The translations under genes and the position numbers were made by a program. A model generated the notes under the pieces. That model saw only the letters and a program-made list of their open reading frames with translations, was not told the DNA's origin and did no database searches. This document shows positions 3,000-29,274 of a stretch of DNA of 41,802 bases, one piece after another (the first letter of the stretch is position 1; each line of letters begins with the position of its first letter). The stretch spans positions 1,496-43,297 of the forward strand of contig JAQSWS010000026.1 in NCBI GenBank assembly GCA_029266495.1, given 5' to 3'. The stretch comes from Rariglobus sp. (GTDB taxonomy: Bacteria > Verrucomicrobiota > Verrucomicrobiia > Opitutales > Opitutaceae).

Positions 3000-3407
3000 T
3001 CAGCGCTTGCGGCGTTTGAGGGCGAGCTGGACGCCGGCGAAGCGCATGACGCTGTGCAGGTGCTCCTGCTCGGCAGGATCGAGGTGGGCGCTTTCCTTGA
3101 GCTGGGTCTCGGCGCGCTTGAGGGCTTCCTCGACGGCTTTCTCGTCGATCTTTTCCTCGGTGATGGCGCGTTCGGCGAGGATCGAGATCTTGTCACCCTC
3201 GACCTGTGCGAAACCATTGCCCACCGCGAGGAAGAGTTCCTTGCCGTCCTTGATCACGCGCAGTTCGCCGTCGGCAACCTGGGTGAGCAGCGGGATGTGG
3301 CCGGGGAGAATGCCGATCTCGCCGTCCACGGTCGGGATGACCACGGTGTCGATGGTGTCGGAATAAACCCGGGCTTCGGGGGTGACGATTTCGAGTGTGA
3401 GGGACAT
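3000..3407 (-). CDS. atpC: ATP synthase F1 subunit epsilon
   Basis: 135 residues, the usual size. The N-terminal beta-sandwich begins LTLEIVTPEARVYSD and has the family motif GEIGILPGHIPLLT at about 30-43. The C-terminal helical hairpin includes LAERAITEEKIDEKAVEEALK. Epsilon joins gamma to the c-ring in the central stalk and inhibits ATP hydrolysis through its C-terminal helices. It is the last gene of the operon, ending just upstream of the bidirectional terminator. A heptad-repeat hairpin fills the gap between atpD and atpC. The leader before the ATG is TTCCTCCGCCGCC, with no purine-rich ribosome-binding site. Confidence 0.97.
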   Translation of the reverse strand: MSLTLEIVTPEARVYSDTIDTVVIPTVDGEIGILPGHIPLLTQVADGELRVIKDGKELFLAVGNGFAQVEGDKISILAERAITEEKIDEKAVEEALKRAETQLKESAHLDPAEQEHLHSVMRFAGVQLALKRRKR

Positions 3408-3420
3408 GGCGGCGGAGGAA

Positions 3421-3504
3421 GTAGTGAGTAGCGGGTAGTGACTAGCGAGTAGTGGAACCGGGCGTTCGCGTGATGCTCGCTACCCGCTACTCACTACTCG
3501 CTAC
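3421..3504. repeat. Heptad inverted array, atpD-atpC gap
   Basis: Five tandem 7-bp units on the left (3421-3455: GTAGTGA, GTAGCGG, GTAGTGA, CTAGCGA, GTAGTGG) face four reverse-complement units on the right (3477-3504: TCGCTAC, CCGCTAC, TCACTAC, TCGCTAC), with about 21 bases between. Units 1-3 can pair with 3477-3497 over 21 bp with one G-U wobble. The consensus is GTAGYGR. It is non-coding and carries many stop codons. Confidence 0.9.
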
Positions 3505-3515
3505 TTCATCAGCGA

Positions 3516-5842
<2,327 letters not shown>

Positions 5843-5852
5843 TGTGGGAGAA

Positions 5853-5935
5853 GTAGCGGGTAGCGAGTAGTGGGTAGCGAGTAGATCGGAGGCGGGGATC
5901 GAGATGCTCGCTACCCGCTACTCACTACTCGCTAC
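5853..5935. repeat. Heptad inverted array, atpA-atpG gap
   Basis: The left array of GTAGYGR units covers 5853-5884 (GTAGCGG, GTAGCGA, GTAGTGG, GTAGCGA, then a partial unit). The right array covers 5908-5935 (TCGCTAC, CCGCTAC, TCACTAC, TCGCTAC). The first two left units pair perfectly with 5908-5921 (14 bp). The right array and its flank are identical over about 34 bases to those of the copy in the atpD-atpC gap. Confidence 0.9.
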
Positions 5936-5940
5936 TGTTA

Positions 5941-7467
5941 TCAGCCGGCGTAGGTGGCTTTCCACTCGTCCAGGGCGGCGACGATTTTGGCCTCGAGGTC
6001 CTTGTCGAGGGCGGCCTTGGTGCGGATTTCCGTGAGGAGCGCGTCCTTGCGGGTGGCGAAGAACTCGCGGATCGAGACGGCGGCGGCTGTGACCTTCTTC
6101 ACGTCGAGGGCGTCGTAGTAGCCCTTTTGGAGGGCATAGATCGTGACAGCCTGGAGTTCGATGGAGATCGGGTTGAAGGCGGGCTGCTTGAAGAGTTCGA
6201 CGATGCGACCGCCGCGGTCGAGCTGGGCCTTGGTCTTGGCGTCGAGGTCGGAGCCGAACTGCGCGAAGGCGGCGAGTTCGCGGAACTGGGCGAGCTCGCC
6301 CTTGAGTTTACCGCCGACCTGCTTGGTGACCTTGATCTGCGCAGCGGAACCGACGCGGGACACGGAGAGACCGACGGAGACCGCGGGACGGATGCCTTGG
6401 TTGAAGAGGTCGGTTTCGAGGAAGATCTGACCGTCGGTGATCGAGATCACGTTGGTCGGGATGTAGGCGGACACGTCGCCGGCGAGGGTTTCGATGATGG
6501 GGAGCGCGGTGAGCGAGCCCTTGCCATCGAGGCGGGCGGAGCGCTCGAGGAGGCGGGAGTGCAGATAGAACACGTCGCCGGGATAGGCTTCGCGGCCGGA
6601 GGGGCGCTTCAGGATGAGCGAGATCTGACGGTAGGCGACGGCGTGCTTGGAGAGGTCATCGAACACGATGAGGGCATCCATGCCGTTTTCCATGAACCAC
6701 TCGCCCATGGCGGCGCCGGAGAAGGGCGCGAGGTATTGGTTGGCGGCGTTGTCGGCGGCGGGGGCGGCGACGATGATCGTGTATTCGAGCGCGCCGGCGG
6801 CCTCGAGGGCGGCGATGGTGCGGACGATGTTGGAGTTCTTCTGGCCGATCGCGACGTAGATCGAATAGACGGGACGGAACTTCGGGTCGCCGGAAGCGGC
6901 GCCGACCTTATTGATCTTCGCCTGGTTGATGATCGTGTCGATCGCGATGGTGGTCTTGCCGGTGCCGCGGTCACCGATGATCAGTTCGCGCTGGCCGCGG
7001 CCGATCGGGATCATGGAATCGATGGCCTGGATGCCGGTGAAGAGCGGTTGGGAAACCGACTTACGGGCCATGATGCCGGGGGCGATCTTCTCGACGGGAT
7101 AGGTTTCGGTGGAGGCGATGGGGCCTTTGCCGTCGACTGGATTGCCGAGGGCGTCGACCGCGCGGCCGAGGAGGGGCTTGCCGACGGGAACGGAGAGGAG
7201 CTTGCCGGTGGTGTGGACCTCGTCGCCTTCCTTGAGCTGGGAGACGTCACCAAGAACGACGGCGCCGACTTCATCGGTGCCGAGGTTGAGCGCGATGCCG
7301 ATCACGCCGTTGGGGAACTGGATCATCTCGTTGTAGGCGACGTCGGAGAGGCCATCGATTTTGGCGACGCCGTCGGCGACGGTGCGGATGATACCGGTGT
7401 TCTTGCGGACGGCTTTGTTGGAAAGCTTCGCGATCTGCTGTTCGATTTGTTCGATGACCGTGCTCAT
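5941..7467 (-). CDS. atpA: ATP synthase F1 subunit alpha
   Basis: 508 residues, full length. Alpha carries the non-catalytic nucleotide sites. Visible motifs are the [17 protein letters not shown]-type segment near 94-110, the P-loop GDRGTGKT at 165-172, and the alpha/beta family signature [17 protein letters not shown]. In most alpha subunits the P-loop reads GDRQTGKT; here the Gln position (168) is Gly. It sits between atpH and atpG in the standard order. The leader is CCCTCCCGCCCGAC before the ATG. Confidence 0.98.
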
Positions 7468-23027: not shown

Positions 23028-26000
23028 GTGAACCACCCGAGCCCCTCCTCCAGCGCCCAAACCGGTGCCCCCTCCGCCGCCCAATCCTTCCGCACCGGCC
23101 GCCCGGCCAAACAGGGGCTCTACGATCCTTGGTTCGAACACGACGCCTGCGGCGTGGGCTTTATCGTCGACATGCAAGGACGTGCGACCCACCGCATCCT
23201 CGAACAAGCCATTCAGGTGCTCGAAAACCTCGACCACCGCGGCGCCGCCGGCAGTGAACCCAATACCGGCGACGGCGCCGGCGTGCTCCTCCAGGTGCCT
23301 CACGAGTTTCTCATCAAGGCCTGCAAAAAGGCCCGGATCACGCTTCCCGCCGCCGGCCACTATGGCACCGGACTCGTCTTTCTTCCGCGCCACGCCGGCC
23401 AGCGCCGCCGCCTGGAGGAGAAATTTGTTCAAATCATCCAAAGCGAGGGTCAGTCCTTTCTCGGCTGGCGCACCGTTCCGACTGACAACGCATCCCTCGG
23501 CGACACCGCCAAGGCCAGCGAGCCCTACATTCGCCAGATTTTCATCGGCCGCGCGGCCGGTCTGACCGACGACCTCGCCTTCGAACGTAAACTCTACGTC
23601 ATCCGCAAGCGCGCCACCGCCGAAATCCGCGCCGACGGCCTCGATGGCGCCGACGTCTGGTATCTGCCCAGCCTTTCCGCCCGCACGCTCGTCTACAAAG
23701 GCATGCTGCTCACCACGCAGCTCGCGACCTATTTTCCGGATCTGCGCGACCCCGCGATGACCACCGCCCTCGCGCTGGTTCACTCACGTTTCAGCACCAA
23801 TACCTTCCCGAGCTGGGACCGCGCGCACCCCTACCGCTTCGTCGCCCACAACGGCGAAATCAACACCCTCCGCGGCAACATCAACTGGATGCATGCCCGC
23901 GAGTCGCTCTTCGTATCCGACGCTTTCGGAGACGATATCAAGAAGGTCCTGCCCGTCATCAATACCAACGGCAGCGACTCGGCGATGTTCGATAACACCC
24001 TCGAACTCCTCTATCTTTCCGGCCGCTCCCTGCCGCATGCGGTCATGATGATGATCCCCGAGGCCTGGTCCAACCACGAGACCATGGAAGACGCCCGCAA
24101 GGCCTTTTACCAATACCACGCGTGCCTCATGGAGCCTTGGGACGGCCCCGCCGCCATGTGTTTCACCGACGGAAGGGTCATCGGCACCGTGCTCGATCGC
24201 AACGGCCTTCGGCCCTGCCGCTATTATGTAACCAGGGACGGCCTTTGCATCATGGCCTCCGAGGCCGGCGTGCTCGACATCCCCGCCGCCGACATCGTCG
24301 AAAAAGGACGCCTGCAACCCGGCCGTATGTTTCTGGTGGATACAGCTCAGGGCCGCATCGTCCCGGACGAGGAGATCAAGCGCCAGCTCTCCGCCGAACG
24401 TCCCTATCGCCAGTGGCTCGACGAGCATCTCGTCCACCTGAAGGACCTGCCCGAGCCGCCCAAGCTCCCGCTGCCTGACCGAGACACGCTGCAACACCGC
24501 CAGCTCGCCTTCGGCTATACCCACGAAGATGAACGCGTCGTCCTCGTCCCGATGGCCCGCGACGGCGTCGAAGGCGTCGGCTCGATGGGCAACGACACAC
24601 CGCTCGCCGTCCTCTCCAACAAACCGCGCCTCCTCTACGATTATTTCAAGCAGCTCTTCGCGCAGGTCACCAACCCGCCCATCGACTGCATCCGTGAGGA
24701 ACTGCTCACCTCCGCCGAGACCCGTCTCGGCTCCGAGGGCAACCTCCTCACGCCTTCCGCCGGCGCCTGCCGCCGCGTCGAACTCGCCTGGCCCGTCCTC
24801 ACCAACGAGGAGTTCGCCAAGATCCGCCGCATGGAGCTGCCCGGGCTCAAGGTTGATGTCGTGCCGATCCTTTTCCAAGTGGCCCGCGGCGAAGCCGGCC
24901 TCGCGAAGGCCATGGAGGAACTCTGCGCCGAGGCCCGCCGCCTCATCGAGCAGGACGAGGTCAATATCCTCGTTCTCAGCGATCGCGGCGTGAACCGCGA
25001 TCTCGCCCCGATTCCCGCGCTCCTCGCCGTCGCCGGCCTGCACCACTACCTCATCCGCGAAGGCCTCCGCACCCGCACGAGCATCGTCCTCGAAACCGGC
25101 GAAGCCCGCGAAGTTCACCACTTTTCGCTGCTCATCGGCTACGGCGTCAGCGCGATCAATCCCTACCTCGCCTTCGAAACCATCGACGACCTGATCCACG
25201 AGGGACTCCTGCCCAACCTCGATCACAAGACCGCCTGCAAAAACTTCGTGAAGGCCACGTCCAAGGGCGTCGTCAAGGTCATGTCCAAGATGGGCATCAC
25301 CGCCATCCAGAGTTATCGCGGCGCCCAGGTCTTTGAGGCGGTCGGCCTCCGCCAGGACGTCATCGACCACTACTTCACCTGGACCCCCTCCCGCGTCGGC
25401 GGCATCGGCCTCGACATCGTCGCTCGCGAGGTGCTCATGCGTCACCGTAACGCCTATTCCGATCGCAAACCCGCCGGCGATCCCCTCCCGGCCGGCGGCC
25501 AGTTTAAATGGCGCGACGACGGTGAATACCACCTCTTCAACCCCGAATCCATCCACCGCCTCCAGAAGGCCGTGCGGACCGGCGACTACGCGACGTTCAA
25601 GGGCTATTCCCAAATCGTCAACGACCAGTCCACGCACCTCTGCACCTTGCGCGGCCTGCTCGATTTCAAGCCCTCCGACGCCATCCCCATCGAAGAGGTC
25701 GAGCCCATCGAAGCCATCCTCGCCCGCTTCAAAACCGGTGCGATGTCCTACGGCTCCATCTCACAAGAGGCCCACGAAACCCTCGCCATTGCGATGAACC
25801 GCATCGGTGGCAAATCCAACACCGGCGAAGGCGGTGAAGATCCCGCCCGTTTCCTCCCGCTGCCCAACGGCGATTCCAAGAACTCCGCCATCAAACAGGT
25901 CGCCTCCGGCCGCTTCGGCGTCACCAGCGAATACCTCGTCAGCGCCCGCGAAATTCAAATTAAAATGGCCCAGGGCGCCAAGCCCGGCGAAGGCGGCCAG

Positions 26001-27683
26001 CTCCCCGGCACGAAGGTCTATCCGTGGGTCGCCAAGACCCGCCACACCACCGCGGGCGTCGGCCTCATCTCCCCGCCGCCGCACCACGACATCTACTCCA
26101 TCGAGGATCTCGCCGAGCTCATCCACGATCTTAAGAACGCCAACCGCCGCGCCCGCATCAGCGTAAAGCTCGTCGCCGAGGTCGGTGTCGGCACCATCGC
26201 CGCCGGTGTCGCCAAGGCGCACGCCGACGTCGTTCTCATCTCCGGCCACGACGGCGGCACCGGCGCCTCCCCGCAAAACTCGATCTGGCACGCCGGCCTA
26301 CCGTGGGAACTCGGCCTCGCCGAGACCCACCAGACGCTCGTCCTGAACAATCTCCGCTCACGCATCGCCGTCGAGACTGACGGCCAGCTCAAGACCGGCC
26401 GCGACGTCATCATGGCCGCGCTCCTCGGCGCCGAGGAATTCGGTTTCGCAACCGCCCCGCTCGTCGCGACCGGCTGCATCATGATGCGTGTTTGCCATCT
26501 GAATACATGCCCGACCGGCGTCGCCACCCAGGACCCGCGTCTCCGTGAAAAATACACCGGCAAGCCCGAGCACGTCGTGAACTTCATGACGTTCATCGCC
26601 CAGGAGGTCCGCGAGCTCATGGCGAAACTCGGCTTCCGCACGGTCGCCGAAATGGTCGGCCGCACCGACCGCCTCGAACCCCGCCAGGCCATCACCCATT
26701 GGAAGGCCAGGGGGCTGGATTTCTCCAGCCTGCTCTACTCGCCGGACACCGCCCCCGAAGTCGGACGCTCCTGCCTGATCCCGCAGGATCACGGACTCGA
26801 CAAATCCCTCGATCTCACCGTCCTTCTCGACCTCTGCAAACCCGCGATCGAGAACCGCGAGAAGGTCGCCGCCGAGGTCCCCGTTCGAAATATCCATCGC
26901 GTCGTCGGCACCATCACCGGCAGTGAAGTCACCCGCAAGTGGGGCGCGGCCGGCCTGCCCGCCGACACCATCGACCTCCGCTTCAAGGGCTCCGCCGGCC
27001 AGAGCTTCGGCGCGTTCCTGCCCCCCGGCATGACGTTCCGCCTCGAGGGCGATGCCAACGACTACGTGGGCAAGGGCCTGTCCGGCGGCCGCCTGATCGT
27101 CTTCCCCCCCGCCGCCTCGACCTTCAAGTCCGAGGACAACATCATCATCGGCAACGTCGCCCTCTACGGCGCCACCGCCGGTGAACTCTATGTCGGCGGC
27201 ATGGCCGGCGAACGTTTCGCCGTCCGTAATTCCGGCGTGGATACAGTGGTCGAGGCCGTGGGCGACCACGGCTGCGAATACATGACCGGCGGACGCGTCG
27301 CCGTCCTCGGCCGCACCGGGCGCAACTTCGCCGCGGGTATGTCCGGCGGCATCGCCTACCTGCTCGACGAGCACGGCGACGCCGTGCGCAACCTCAACCT
27401 CCAGATGGTCGCGGTCGAAAAAATCGACAGCGCCACCGAGGCGGTCGCGCTGCGCACACTCATCGAACGCCACCAGGCTTACACAGGCAGCCCCAAGGCC
27501 GCCCAGCTCCTCGCCACCTGGGAGACAAGTCTCTCGAAGTTCATCAAGGTCATGCCCAAGGACTACAAACGCATGCTCGCCTGCATCGAGAAGGCCGAGG
27601 CGCAGGGCCTCACCGGCGACGAAGCCGTCATGTCCGCCTTCGAGGAAAACGCCCGCGACCTCTCCCGCGTCGGGGGCAATTGA
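23028..27683 (+). CDS. gltB: Glutamate synthase large subunit (first copy)
   Basis: About 1551 residues from a GTG at 23028; an upstream TTG at 22989 is also in frame. It transfers the glutamine amide to 2-oxoglutarate. After a Pro/Ser-rich propeptide of about 40 residues the nucleophile Cys41 opens the glutaminase domain ([12 protein letters not shown]). The central domain, the FMN-binding synthase domain ([48 protein letters not shown]) and the 3Fe-4S cysteines in the C-x5-C-x4-C pattern (Cys1150, 1156, 1161) follow. The GXGXG beta-helix domain (GEGG, GMSGG repeats) closes the protein. The small subunit gene follows after a 106-bp gap holding a heptad-repeat element. The start region is pyrimidine-rich (CCCCCTTTAC). 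Confidence 0.97.
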
Positions 27684-27695
27684 TCAAAAACCAAA

Positions 27696-27776
27696 GTAGC
27701 GAGTAACGAGCATCCCAAACCGCCAAAGCAACTCTGCCGCCCGTCTACTCGCTACCCACTACCCGCTACTCGCTAC
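27696..27776. repeat. Heptad inverted array, gltB-gltD gap
   Basis: This is the third copy of the GTAGYGR element. The left arm has two units (GTAGCGA, GTAACGA) and the right arm about four and a half (27745-27776). Bases 27694-27705 pair perfectly with 27767-27778 (12 bp) across a loop of about 60 bases; the inner units offer alternative pairings. It is more diverged than the two atp copies. Confidence 0.85.
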
Positions 27777-27789
27777 TTCTTAAACCATC

Positions 27790-29274
27790 ATGGGCAAACC
27801 CACCGGCTTCCTCGAATACATGCGGGAACTCCCCGCCGACCGCCCCCCGCTCGACCGCGTGCGCGACTGGAAGGAGTTCCACCTCCACCAGGACGAGAAA
27901 CAACTCCGCCAGCAGGGCGCCCGCTGCATGGATTGCGGCGTCCCGTTCTGCCACACCGGCAAACTCATCAGCGGCATGGCCGCCGGCTGTCCCGTCCACA
28001 ACCTCATCCCCGAGTGGAACGACCTCGTGTTCCGCGGACACTGGCAGCAGGCGCTCGAACGCCTCCACAAGACGAACAATTTCCCCGAGTTCACCGGCCG
28101 CGTCTGCCCCGCCCCCTGTGAAGGCTCCTGCGTGCTCGGGATCAACAACCCGCCCGTCACGATCAAAAACATCGAGTATTCGATCATTGAACGCGGCTGG
28201 GACGAGGGCTGGGTCCTGCCCAAACCGCCCAGGGTCCGCACCGGGAAAAAGGTCGCCGTGATCGGCTCCGGCCCCGCCGGCCTCTCCGCCGCCGCCCAAC
28301 TCAACACCGCCGGCCACACCGTCACGGTCTACGAACGCGCCGACCGCCCCGGCGGCCTCCTCATGTATGGCATCCCCAACATGAAACTCGACAAGCAGGA
28401 AGTAGTGCTCCGCCGGATACAGCTGCTGAAGCAGGAAGGCGTCACCTTCGTGTGCAACACCGCCGTCGGCGAAAACCTCGCCGCCGCCGACCTCCTCAAA
28501 CAATTCGACGCCACGGTCGTCTGCACCGGCGCAACCCTGCCGCGCGACCTGCCCATCGAGGGTCGCAACCTCCCCGGCGTGCACTTCGCGATGGAATTCC
28601 TCACCGCCAGCACCAAGGCCGTGCTCGCCGGCGACGGCTTCGCCTCGCCGATCAACGCGAAGGACAAGGACGTGATCGTCATCGGCGGTGGCGACACCGG
28701 CACCGATTGCGTCGGCACCTCGCTCCGCCACGGCTGCCGCAGCGTCACTCAAATCGAGATCCTTCCCAAGCCCGCCCTCGCCCGCACCCCCGACAACCCC
28801 TGGCCCGAGTGGCCCAAGACCTACAAGCTCGACTACGGCCAGGAAGAAGCCGCCGCCAGATACGGTGCCGACCCGCGCGTCTACCTGACGACCGTCAAAA
28901 AGTTCAATGCCGATGCCGATGGCCGCGTCGCCTCGCTCGTCACCGTGCAGATCAAGTGGGACAAAAACGAAAAAGGTCAGTTCATCCCCGTCGAACTTCC
29001 CGGCACCGAACAAACCCGCCCCGCCCAACTCGTGTTGCTCGCAATGGGATTTCTCGGGCCCGAACAACCGTTGGTGAAGAGCCTCGGGCTCGAAACCGAT
29101 CCCCGGAGCAACGTGAAAGCCGATTTCGAGAAATACACGACCAGCCTGCCCGGGGTGTTTGCCGCGGGCGACTGCCGCCGCGGCCAGAGCCTGGTCGTCT
29201 GGGCCATCAACGAAGGCCGAGGCGCCGCCCGCGAGTGCGATCGCTACCTGATGGGTGCAACGGACCTGCCGTAG
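27790..29274 (+). CDS. gltD: Glutamate synthase small subunit
   Basis: 494 residues. GltD takes electrons from NAD(P)H via FAD and passes them through Fe-S clusters to GltB. The N-terminal cluster-binding region has C-M-D-C-G-V-P-F-C (Cys46, 49, 54), then [11 protein letters not shown] and CPAPCEGSC. The FAD-binding motif [14 protein letters not shown] is near 155-168, [22 protein letters not shown] follows, and the NAD(P)H site is [13 protein letters not shown] (about 297-309). The FAD end motif is [23 protein letters not shown]. It is the only small subunit gene here and lies between two large subunit genes. The leader is TACTTCTTAAACCATC, from the end of the repeat element. Confidence 0.97.

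Follow-up and report, generated by a model that had tools for sequence, protein, structure and literature searches.

Facing arrays of a GTAGYGR heptamer in the operon gaps of a Rariglobus genome: probable gene-less members of a family of intervening-sequence-like inserts

The gap between atpD and atpC in this Rariglobus genome holds nine heptamers, eight strict GTAGYGR units and one degenerate unit (CTAGCGA), set in two facing arrays as the original prediction had described. The element occurs twice more in the window, by which we mean the whole stretch of 41,802 nucleotides that was analysed: between atpA and atpG and between gltB and gltD (Table 1), where two further copies had been expected. 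We read the product of atpD as the beta and not the alpha subunit because the gene sits between atpG and atpC. The window contains 17 two-unit matches with at most one mismatch, where shuffles lead one to expect 0.08. Copy 3 is lopsided, one arm having one strict and one degenerate unit and the other four strict units.

Table 1. Positions of the three heptamer-array copies, their GAGCAT motifs and the flanking genes in the window
Feature	Position	Strand	Details or basis
Copy 1, facing GTAGYGR arrays in the atpD-atpC gap	3420..3505	-	5' arm in sense 3505-3476, 3' arm 3455-3420
Copy 2, facing arrays in the atpA-atpG gap	5852..5936	-	Pattern matches and fold
Copy 3, gltB-gltD gap, shorter 5' arm and full 3' arm	27695..27778	+	Pattern matches and fold
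GAGCAT of copy 1, loop-side, in the transcript's 5' arm	3473..3478	-	Sequence
GAGCAT of copy 2	5904..5909	-	Sequence
GAGCAT of copy 3	27708..27713	+	Sequence
atpD, upstream of copy 1	3516..4934	-	Pfam ATP-synt_ab
atpC, downstream of copy 1	3000..3407	-	Pfam ATP-synt_DE_N
atpA, upstream of copy 2	5941..7467	-	TIGR00962
atpG, downstream of copy 2	4973..5842	-	TIGR01146
gltB, upstream of copy 3	23028..27683	+	Gene call
gltD, downstream of copy 3	27790..29274	+	TIGR01317

The arrays of copy 1 were predicted to pair into a hairpin of about 21 bp with one wobble, and they do so closely: the longest unbroken stem, with one wobble in each case, is 22 bp on the plus strand (3420-3441 with 3477-3498) and 20 bp on the transcribed minus strand. 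The mRNA folds of copies 1, 2 and 3 have energies of -50.2, -52.5 and -20.7 kcal/mol (z -6.1, -10.4 and -4.4), so that all three window copies have a stem built from terminal inverted repeats, long in copies 1 and 2 and weaker in copy 3, whose best unbroken stem is 12 bp. Rfam, at gathering score, gave no matches in the whole window, rRNA included. An S23/IVP (PF05635) gene is absent from the loops of the three copies, which are short and leave no room for one.

By an AtpC search, whose best named match was UBA4094 at 95% AtpC identity, the genome of the window (G000; 4.89 Mb in 172 contigs) falls within the Opitutaceae. It contains 116 matches to a pattern of three units and none to the reversed control pattern, and its copies are nearly confined to gaps between co-directional genes, as described below; the element is indeed a dispersed family. 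Beyond G000, the three-unit pattern was present in 8 of 12 genomes from the genus, in 11 of 23 from the rest of the family and in 0 of 20 from the rest of the order. Across a phylum sample it matched 23 of 387 genomes, 18 of the 37 in the family and 5 of the 350 outside it; four of those five repeat a single unit without variation. Bare matches outside the family mean little, because 11 of the 387 genomes match the reversed control as well (one of them, G408, in high number, with 60 matches).

To place the copies relative to genes, we catalogued clusters of at least four strict units in 40 stretches of G000 around the matches listed and in the window, with genes outside the window called in this analysis by codon usage. 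Among the matches listed there are at least 49 clusters, 46 of them between co-directional genes, one between convergent genes (L150) and none between divergent genes; one of the other two lies within a called gene near a contig end (L169) and one at a contig edge. The expectation that the element always sits inside an operon thus stands for the great majority of clusters and fails for these three. Among the 60- to 250-nt gaps of these stretches, co-directional and other arrangements numbered 38 and 1 where a cluster was present, and 46 and 32 where there was none (Fisher p 2.7e-6). The flanking genes, identified by Pfam, often serve one pathway or complex (leuC-leuD, gap-pgk, pgk-tpiA, nuoD-nuoE-like, gatA-gatB, hemC-hemD, hom-lysC, lysC-thrC, araB-araA-araD-like, E2-lpd and ABC ATPase-phoU); some pairs, such as glmS-like with trpE-like and rny with queF, have no obvious relation. 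The location of the copies outside rRNA rests on Rfam for the window and on called ORFs for the other 46 clusters.

The copies also have a fixed direction. A loop-side GAGCAT is carried by 26 of the 46 co-directional clusters and lies in the 5' arm of the transcript in all 26, 13 of 13 on plus-strand genes and 13 of 13 on minus-strand genes; in the window it changes strand along with the genes (-, -, +). Twelve co-directional clusters have strict units on a single arm, which reads CTAC in sense in 11 and GTAG in sense in one (L152:14400), an exception to the rule of direction. The loops of the mini copies, as we call copies without a gene, are barely alike, with a mean identity of 0.355 against 0.335 (the highest of 500 shuffles). 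We considered whether replication sets the orientation and disfavour this: one contig has copies on both gene directions, and GAGCAT tracks the gene direction each time.

Two further observations concern placement. In L151 (7893-9025, on contig C30 of G000) several arrays of the 3' type, with CTAC in sense, form a series that, in contrast to the majority of copies, lies at a distance of more than 100 nt from the next called start codon. At L156, L162, L170 and L178 the stop codon of the upstream gene, by our gene calls, falls inside the array, so these inserts may supply the stop.

Several of these gaps are occupied in related species by hairpins made of other words. In the relatives many atpD-atpC gaps are 4 to 10 nt long, and many others hold a hairpin of 80 to 150 nt with a different vocabulary; in the genus, 10 of the 13 genomes have an insert there, one of them degenerate (G011), and five vocabularies are represented. 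The gap-pgk gap is occupied in all 13, again by five vocabularies, with a single arm in G001 and, in the other 12, folds at or below -41 kcal/mol (energies computed without shuffles). Even the near relatives G000 and G001 carry different vocabularies at atpA-atpG. In a between-species comparison, the hom-lysC insert is present in G000 alone among 12 genomes with data (0 of the 11 others), and whether the pgk-tpi and lysC-thrC gaps contain an insert varies from species to species. In G002 the lysC-thrC gap (L304) contains a PF05635 gene between arrays of TCAGA words; G000 has a mini GTAG copy there.

We surveyed the atp operon in 100 fetched loci, of which one without atpG was dropped, and in the window. 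Strong hairpins (z < -3, at least 15 bp), counted without 13 gaps longer than 300 nt, were found at B-E in 0/91, E-F in 30/93, F-H in 5/95, H-A in 2/96, A-G in 21/89, G-D in 5/96 and D-C in 32/99. Those at E-F (c to b) are, by eye, plain GC-rich hairpins with no word arrays. When gene-bearing inserts are included and hairpins are counted at z < -2 and at least 12 bp, A-G and D-C are preferred to G-D and H-A (34/98 versus 10/99, p 3e-5; 37/100 versus 2/96, p 9e-11; the Fisher tests ignore shared descent). The subunit ratio falls from 3 to 1 at A-G and D-C and rises at H-A and G-D.

These patterns could reflect a regulatory hairpin of the host, kept at particular gaps to set relative expression and free in its letters, so that vocabularies replace each other. 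Such a hairpin might protect the 3' end of the upstream gene, direct processing or control access to the downstream start codon, and the four-helix-bundle genes described below would then have come in secondarily as guests, or would encode RNA-binding proteins that regulate the hairpins. The constancy of occupation at gap-pgk and atpD-atpC under five vocabularies each, the preference for the two 3-to-1 steps, and the short distance of 5 to 20 nt between the cluster end and the next start codon in 35 of the 46 co-directional cases all speak for it. However, F-H is also a step down in subunit number, from 2 to 1, and has hairpins by the looser thresholds in just 7 of 95; the tests on the atp junctions carry the limit of descent given above; and the occupation of hom-lysC in one genome and the mixed state of pgk-tpi and lysC-thrC are as would be seen for inserts. 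On balance, we regard regulation by the host as an unlikely account of the family.

The 13 long atp gaps show what the larger members look like. Each is a gene between facing arrays, and the gene is a PF05635-like four-helix-bundle gene in sense in 12 and a GxxExxY gene (TIGR04256/PF13366) in one. PF05635 is the family of the 23S rRNA intervening-sequence protein (TIGR02436). It was found in all 13 genomes of the genus (12 above the curated cutoff); of the 60 genomes sampled in the family 48 had it, and of the 14 control genomes none did.

We compared the two flanks of such genes at 30 of 39 PF05635 places in the genus (three scoring under the family cutoff), at 29 best matches in the wider family and at 30 of 50 PF13366 places; short flanks removed 1 of the 59 PF05635 loci and 1 of the 30 PF13366 loci, leaving 58 and 29. 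The PF05635 flanks were facing-complementary above the 99% shuffle level at 38 of 58 loci. Against swapped pairs of flanks, 38 of 58 reached the score attained by 5% of swaps and 27 of 58 the 1% level. For PF13366, 23 of 29 passed the shuffle level, 19 of 29 the 95% swap level and 4 of 29 the 99% swap level, this last number being low since the words at these loci are common to each other. Facing flanks above the shuffle threshold were absent at 20 of the 58 PF05635 and 6 of the 29 GxxExxY loci. Where both neighbors were called, both were co-directional with the gene at 45 of 49 PF05635 and 22 of 28 PF13366 loci.

The GxxExxY genes, at L277 (an atpA-atpG gap) and L369-L398, are surrounded by a second kind of vocabulary, with facing-array words such as CCACGGAACACACGGAA, CACAGAGG, CCGCTAATTTACGCTAAT and CGCAAAGACGCGAAG, and lie mostly in sense between co-directional genes.

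The GTAGYGR vocabulary itself surrounds a PF05635 gene at six loci in relatives, in the gaps gyrB-gyrA (L314, L315, L356 and L363), pheS-pheT (L355, where PheT was identified from its sequence, without a Pfam match) and gatA-gatB (L361). In the last of these gaps, G021 carries the form with a gene and G000 the mini form (L180). At four of the six loci the array runs into the ATG of the gene without a spacer, as GAGC-ATG in L355, L356 and L363 and as AAGC-ATG in L361; at L314 and L315 the gene starts about 30 nt beyond the array. In the mini copies the base after GAGCAT varies (C 10, T 11, A 3 and G 3 in 27 occurrences). The two GTAG-clade proteins that we checked, those of L315 and L356, are TIGR02436 four-helix-bundle proteins, and the closest solved chain to the L356 protein is 2gsc.

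The words follow the protein. Proteins flanked by the same words have a median identity of 0.74, compared with 0.22, and vocabulary and protein distances are correlated both across 48 elements (Mantel r 0.61) and across 24 site-unique elements with four same-word pairs (r 0.48), with 0 of 5000 permutations reaching these values in either case. The correspondence has exceptions: 11 of 49 protein pairs above 60% identity have little word overlap by the measure used here, and L317 and L336 have common words despite 18% protein identity.

This tie bears on the idea that slippage and template switching make words and arrays locally in any intercistronic palindrome, without a mobile element. Growth in situ would suit arms that have common words but not exact letters, and also the difference in vocabulary between G000 and G001 at atpA-atpG. 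It would not lead one to expect that a single genome repeats the same words in dozens of its gaps and that other genera use them too, that a vocabulary follows the protein clade across unlinked sites, or that copies have a fixed direction. We disfavour it and consider it very improbable.

Three PF05635 genes were found in G000, and none belongs to the GTAG clade (best identity 40%); present-day mobility in G000 is therefore unsupported. For the same reason we disfavour the candidate explanation that the copies form a post-transcriptional regulon of a resident GTAG-clade protein.

We consider it probable that the copies in the window belong, as members without a gene, to a family of inserts resembling the 23S rRNA intervening sequences (IVSs), lying in sense in the operon gaps of mRNAs. 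A full member consists of a word array, a PF05635/TIGR02436 four-helix-bundle gene and a second array that faces the first and repeats its words; once transcribed, the arrays are predicted to pair into a long hairpin that encloses the gene or, in mini copies, a short loop. The long stem and the S23-type gene in the loop of full members suggest that the insert family works like the IVSs. We infer that the inserts are or have been mobile, their protein recognising its own words, and that mini copies either were moved in trans or remain after loss of the gene. From its sequence, the orientation counts and the gene-bearing relatives, we propose that the GAGCAT of copy 1 is what is left of the start of a four-helix-bundle gene that has been lost. 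By analogy with the IVSs, the RNA hairpins of the inserts are probably substrates of RNase III, and cleavage there would split the polycistronic mRNA harmlessly. Operon gaps may be to mRNA what the tolerant helices are to 23S rRNA, places where cutting of the RNA need not hurt. Some gaps may retain an insert since its hairpin shields the upstream segment or uncouples downstream translation.

Among the ideas in the original prediction, the one that fits best is that of a small mobile repeat which only gaps of this kind tolerate. The direction fixed in 26 of 26 cases nevertheless exceeds mere tolerance, and the main point was out of the prediction's reach: larger members hold a protein gene between the same arrays. 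Its other idea, that the element may shape mRNA processing or relative expression, would agree with the strength of the hairpins and with their persistence at some gaps. Its proposed search of the genome and of relatives for GTAGYGR arrays, with positions mapped, gave the distribution reported above, with 46 of 49 clusters in co-directional gaps and one inside a gene.

A broader reading, which we hold only tentatively, is that the inserts form a large unrecognised class of transcript-oriented elements in operon gaps, each lineage having its own words read by its own small protein, either a four-helix bundle or a GxxExxY protein of nuclease fold. Gene-less hairpins would be their offspring and the 23S rRNA IVSs their ribosomal branch. 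The class would move through RNA, and such movement would account both for inserts lying in sense and for their preference for operon gaps that are transcribed.

These readings would give a home to two orphan gene families, annotated as "four helix bundle protein" and "GxxExxY protein," and suggest an answer to the origin of the 23S rRNA IVSs. They would make that long-open question, and that of S23 function, testable, as one would expect the protein to bind hairpins written in its own words. They also portray core operons (atp, gap-pgk-tpi, gyrB-gyrA and gatA-gatB) as colonised again and again by swappable hairpins.

The IVS architecture is already known, as are the families of the cargo proteins. 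The titles and abstract openings of open-licence papers, which are weak evidence of absence, contained no description that we could find of operon-gap elements of this kind, whether of their operon location, word arrays, vocabulary-clade tie or gene-less copies; papers matching the sequence words were, by title, unrelated. The original prediction knew of no named family with this unit, and in the papers searched a name was found for the cargo protein alone (TIGR02436/PF05635) and not for the repeat.

Among known systems, the letters of the unit recall the GTAG REPs, palindromes mobilised by a REP-associated tyrosine transposase (RAYT). One genome bearing on this comparison is that of O. terrae, which we take to be a member of the Opitutaceae. 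One study describes this Verrucomicrobium as highly enriched in GTAG REPs, and REPs in general as palindromes of 20 to 40 bp with stems of 6 to 13 bp (PMC3733652). Like GTAG REPs and BIMEs, whose dimers are mostly 20 to 100 bp apart (PMC3733652), the copies are dispersed intergenic palindromic DNA with GTAG letters, their units beginning with GTAG, and plausibly form transcribed hairpins. Unlike them, they have tandem heptamer arms, a fixed sense direction and a location nearly always between co-directional genes. Each arm here is an array of about four or five GTAGYGR units that pairs with the facing array, rather than a REP palindrome with a terminal unpaired GTAG. Vocabularies without GTAG occupy the same gaps, and in G000, the single genome searched, we found no link to a RAYT: the sole Y1_Tnp gene found there lies in a 3.3-kb locus free of heptamer arrays. 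A REP origin is thus hardly credible. This Y1_Tnp gene (L050, C1:2859-3185) has an ORF that appears by eye to be bounded by the short inverted repeats gggcgttttttgtca and tgacaaaaaacgccc.

MITEs are short gene-less copies whose ends are common to a gene-bearing parent transposon. The gene-less inserts likewise have the ends of gene-bearing members; they differ from MITEs in that the insert gene is no known transposase, the ends are word arrays and the direction is tied to transcription. PF05635 is also said to resemble the Avd protein of diversity-generating retroelements (PMC10053308). The GTAG-clade proteins, however, match the Avd model weakly, at 24.3 and 19.7 bits, far under its cutoff of 80.

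The inserts also resemble the 23S rRNA IVSs, some of which are likewise gene-less. The IVS of Coxiella burnetii is described as having terminal inverted repeats, a 28-bp stem, an S23/IVP gene inside and a sporadic distribution, and as being excised by RNase III; the origin and function of IVSs are there called unclear, and the idea is raised that the IVS was a mobile element whose gene helped its mobility (PMC4990558). Like it, the gene-bearing inserts have a long terminal stem around an S23/IVP gene and are sporadically distributed. Unlike it, the window copies lie between protein-coding genes and not in a 23S rRNA gene, and the inserts have arms made of short-word arrays, in many vocabularies and with many copies per genome.
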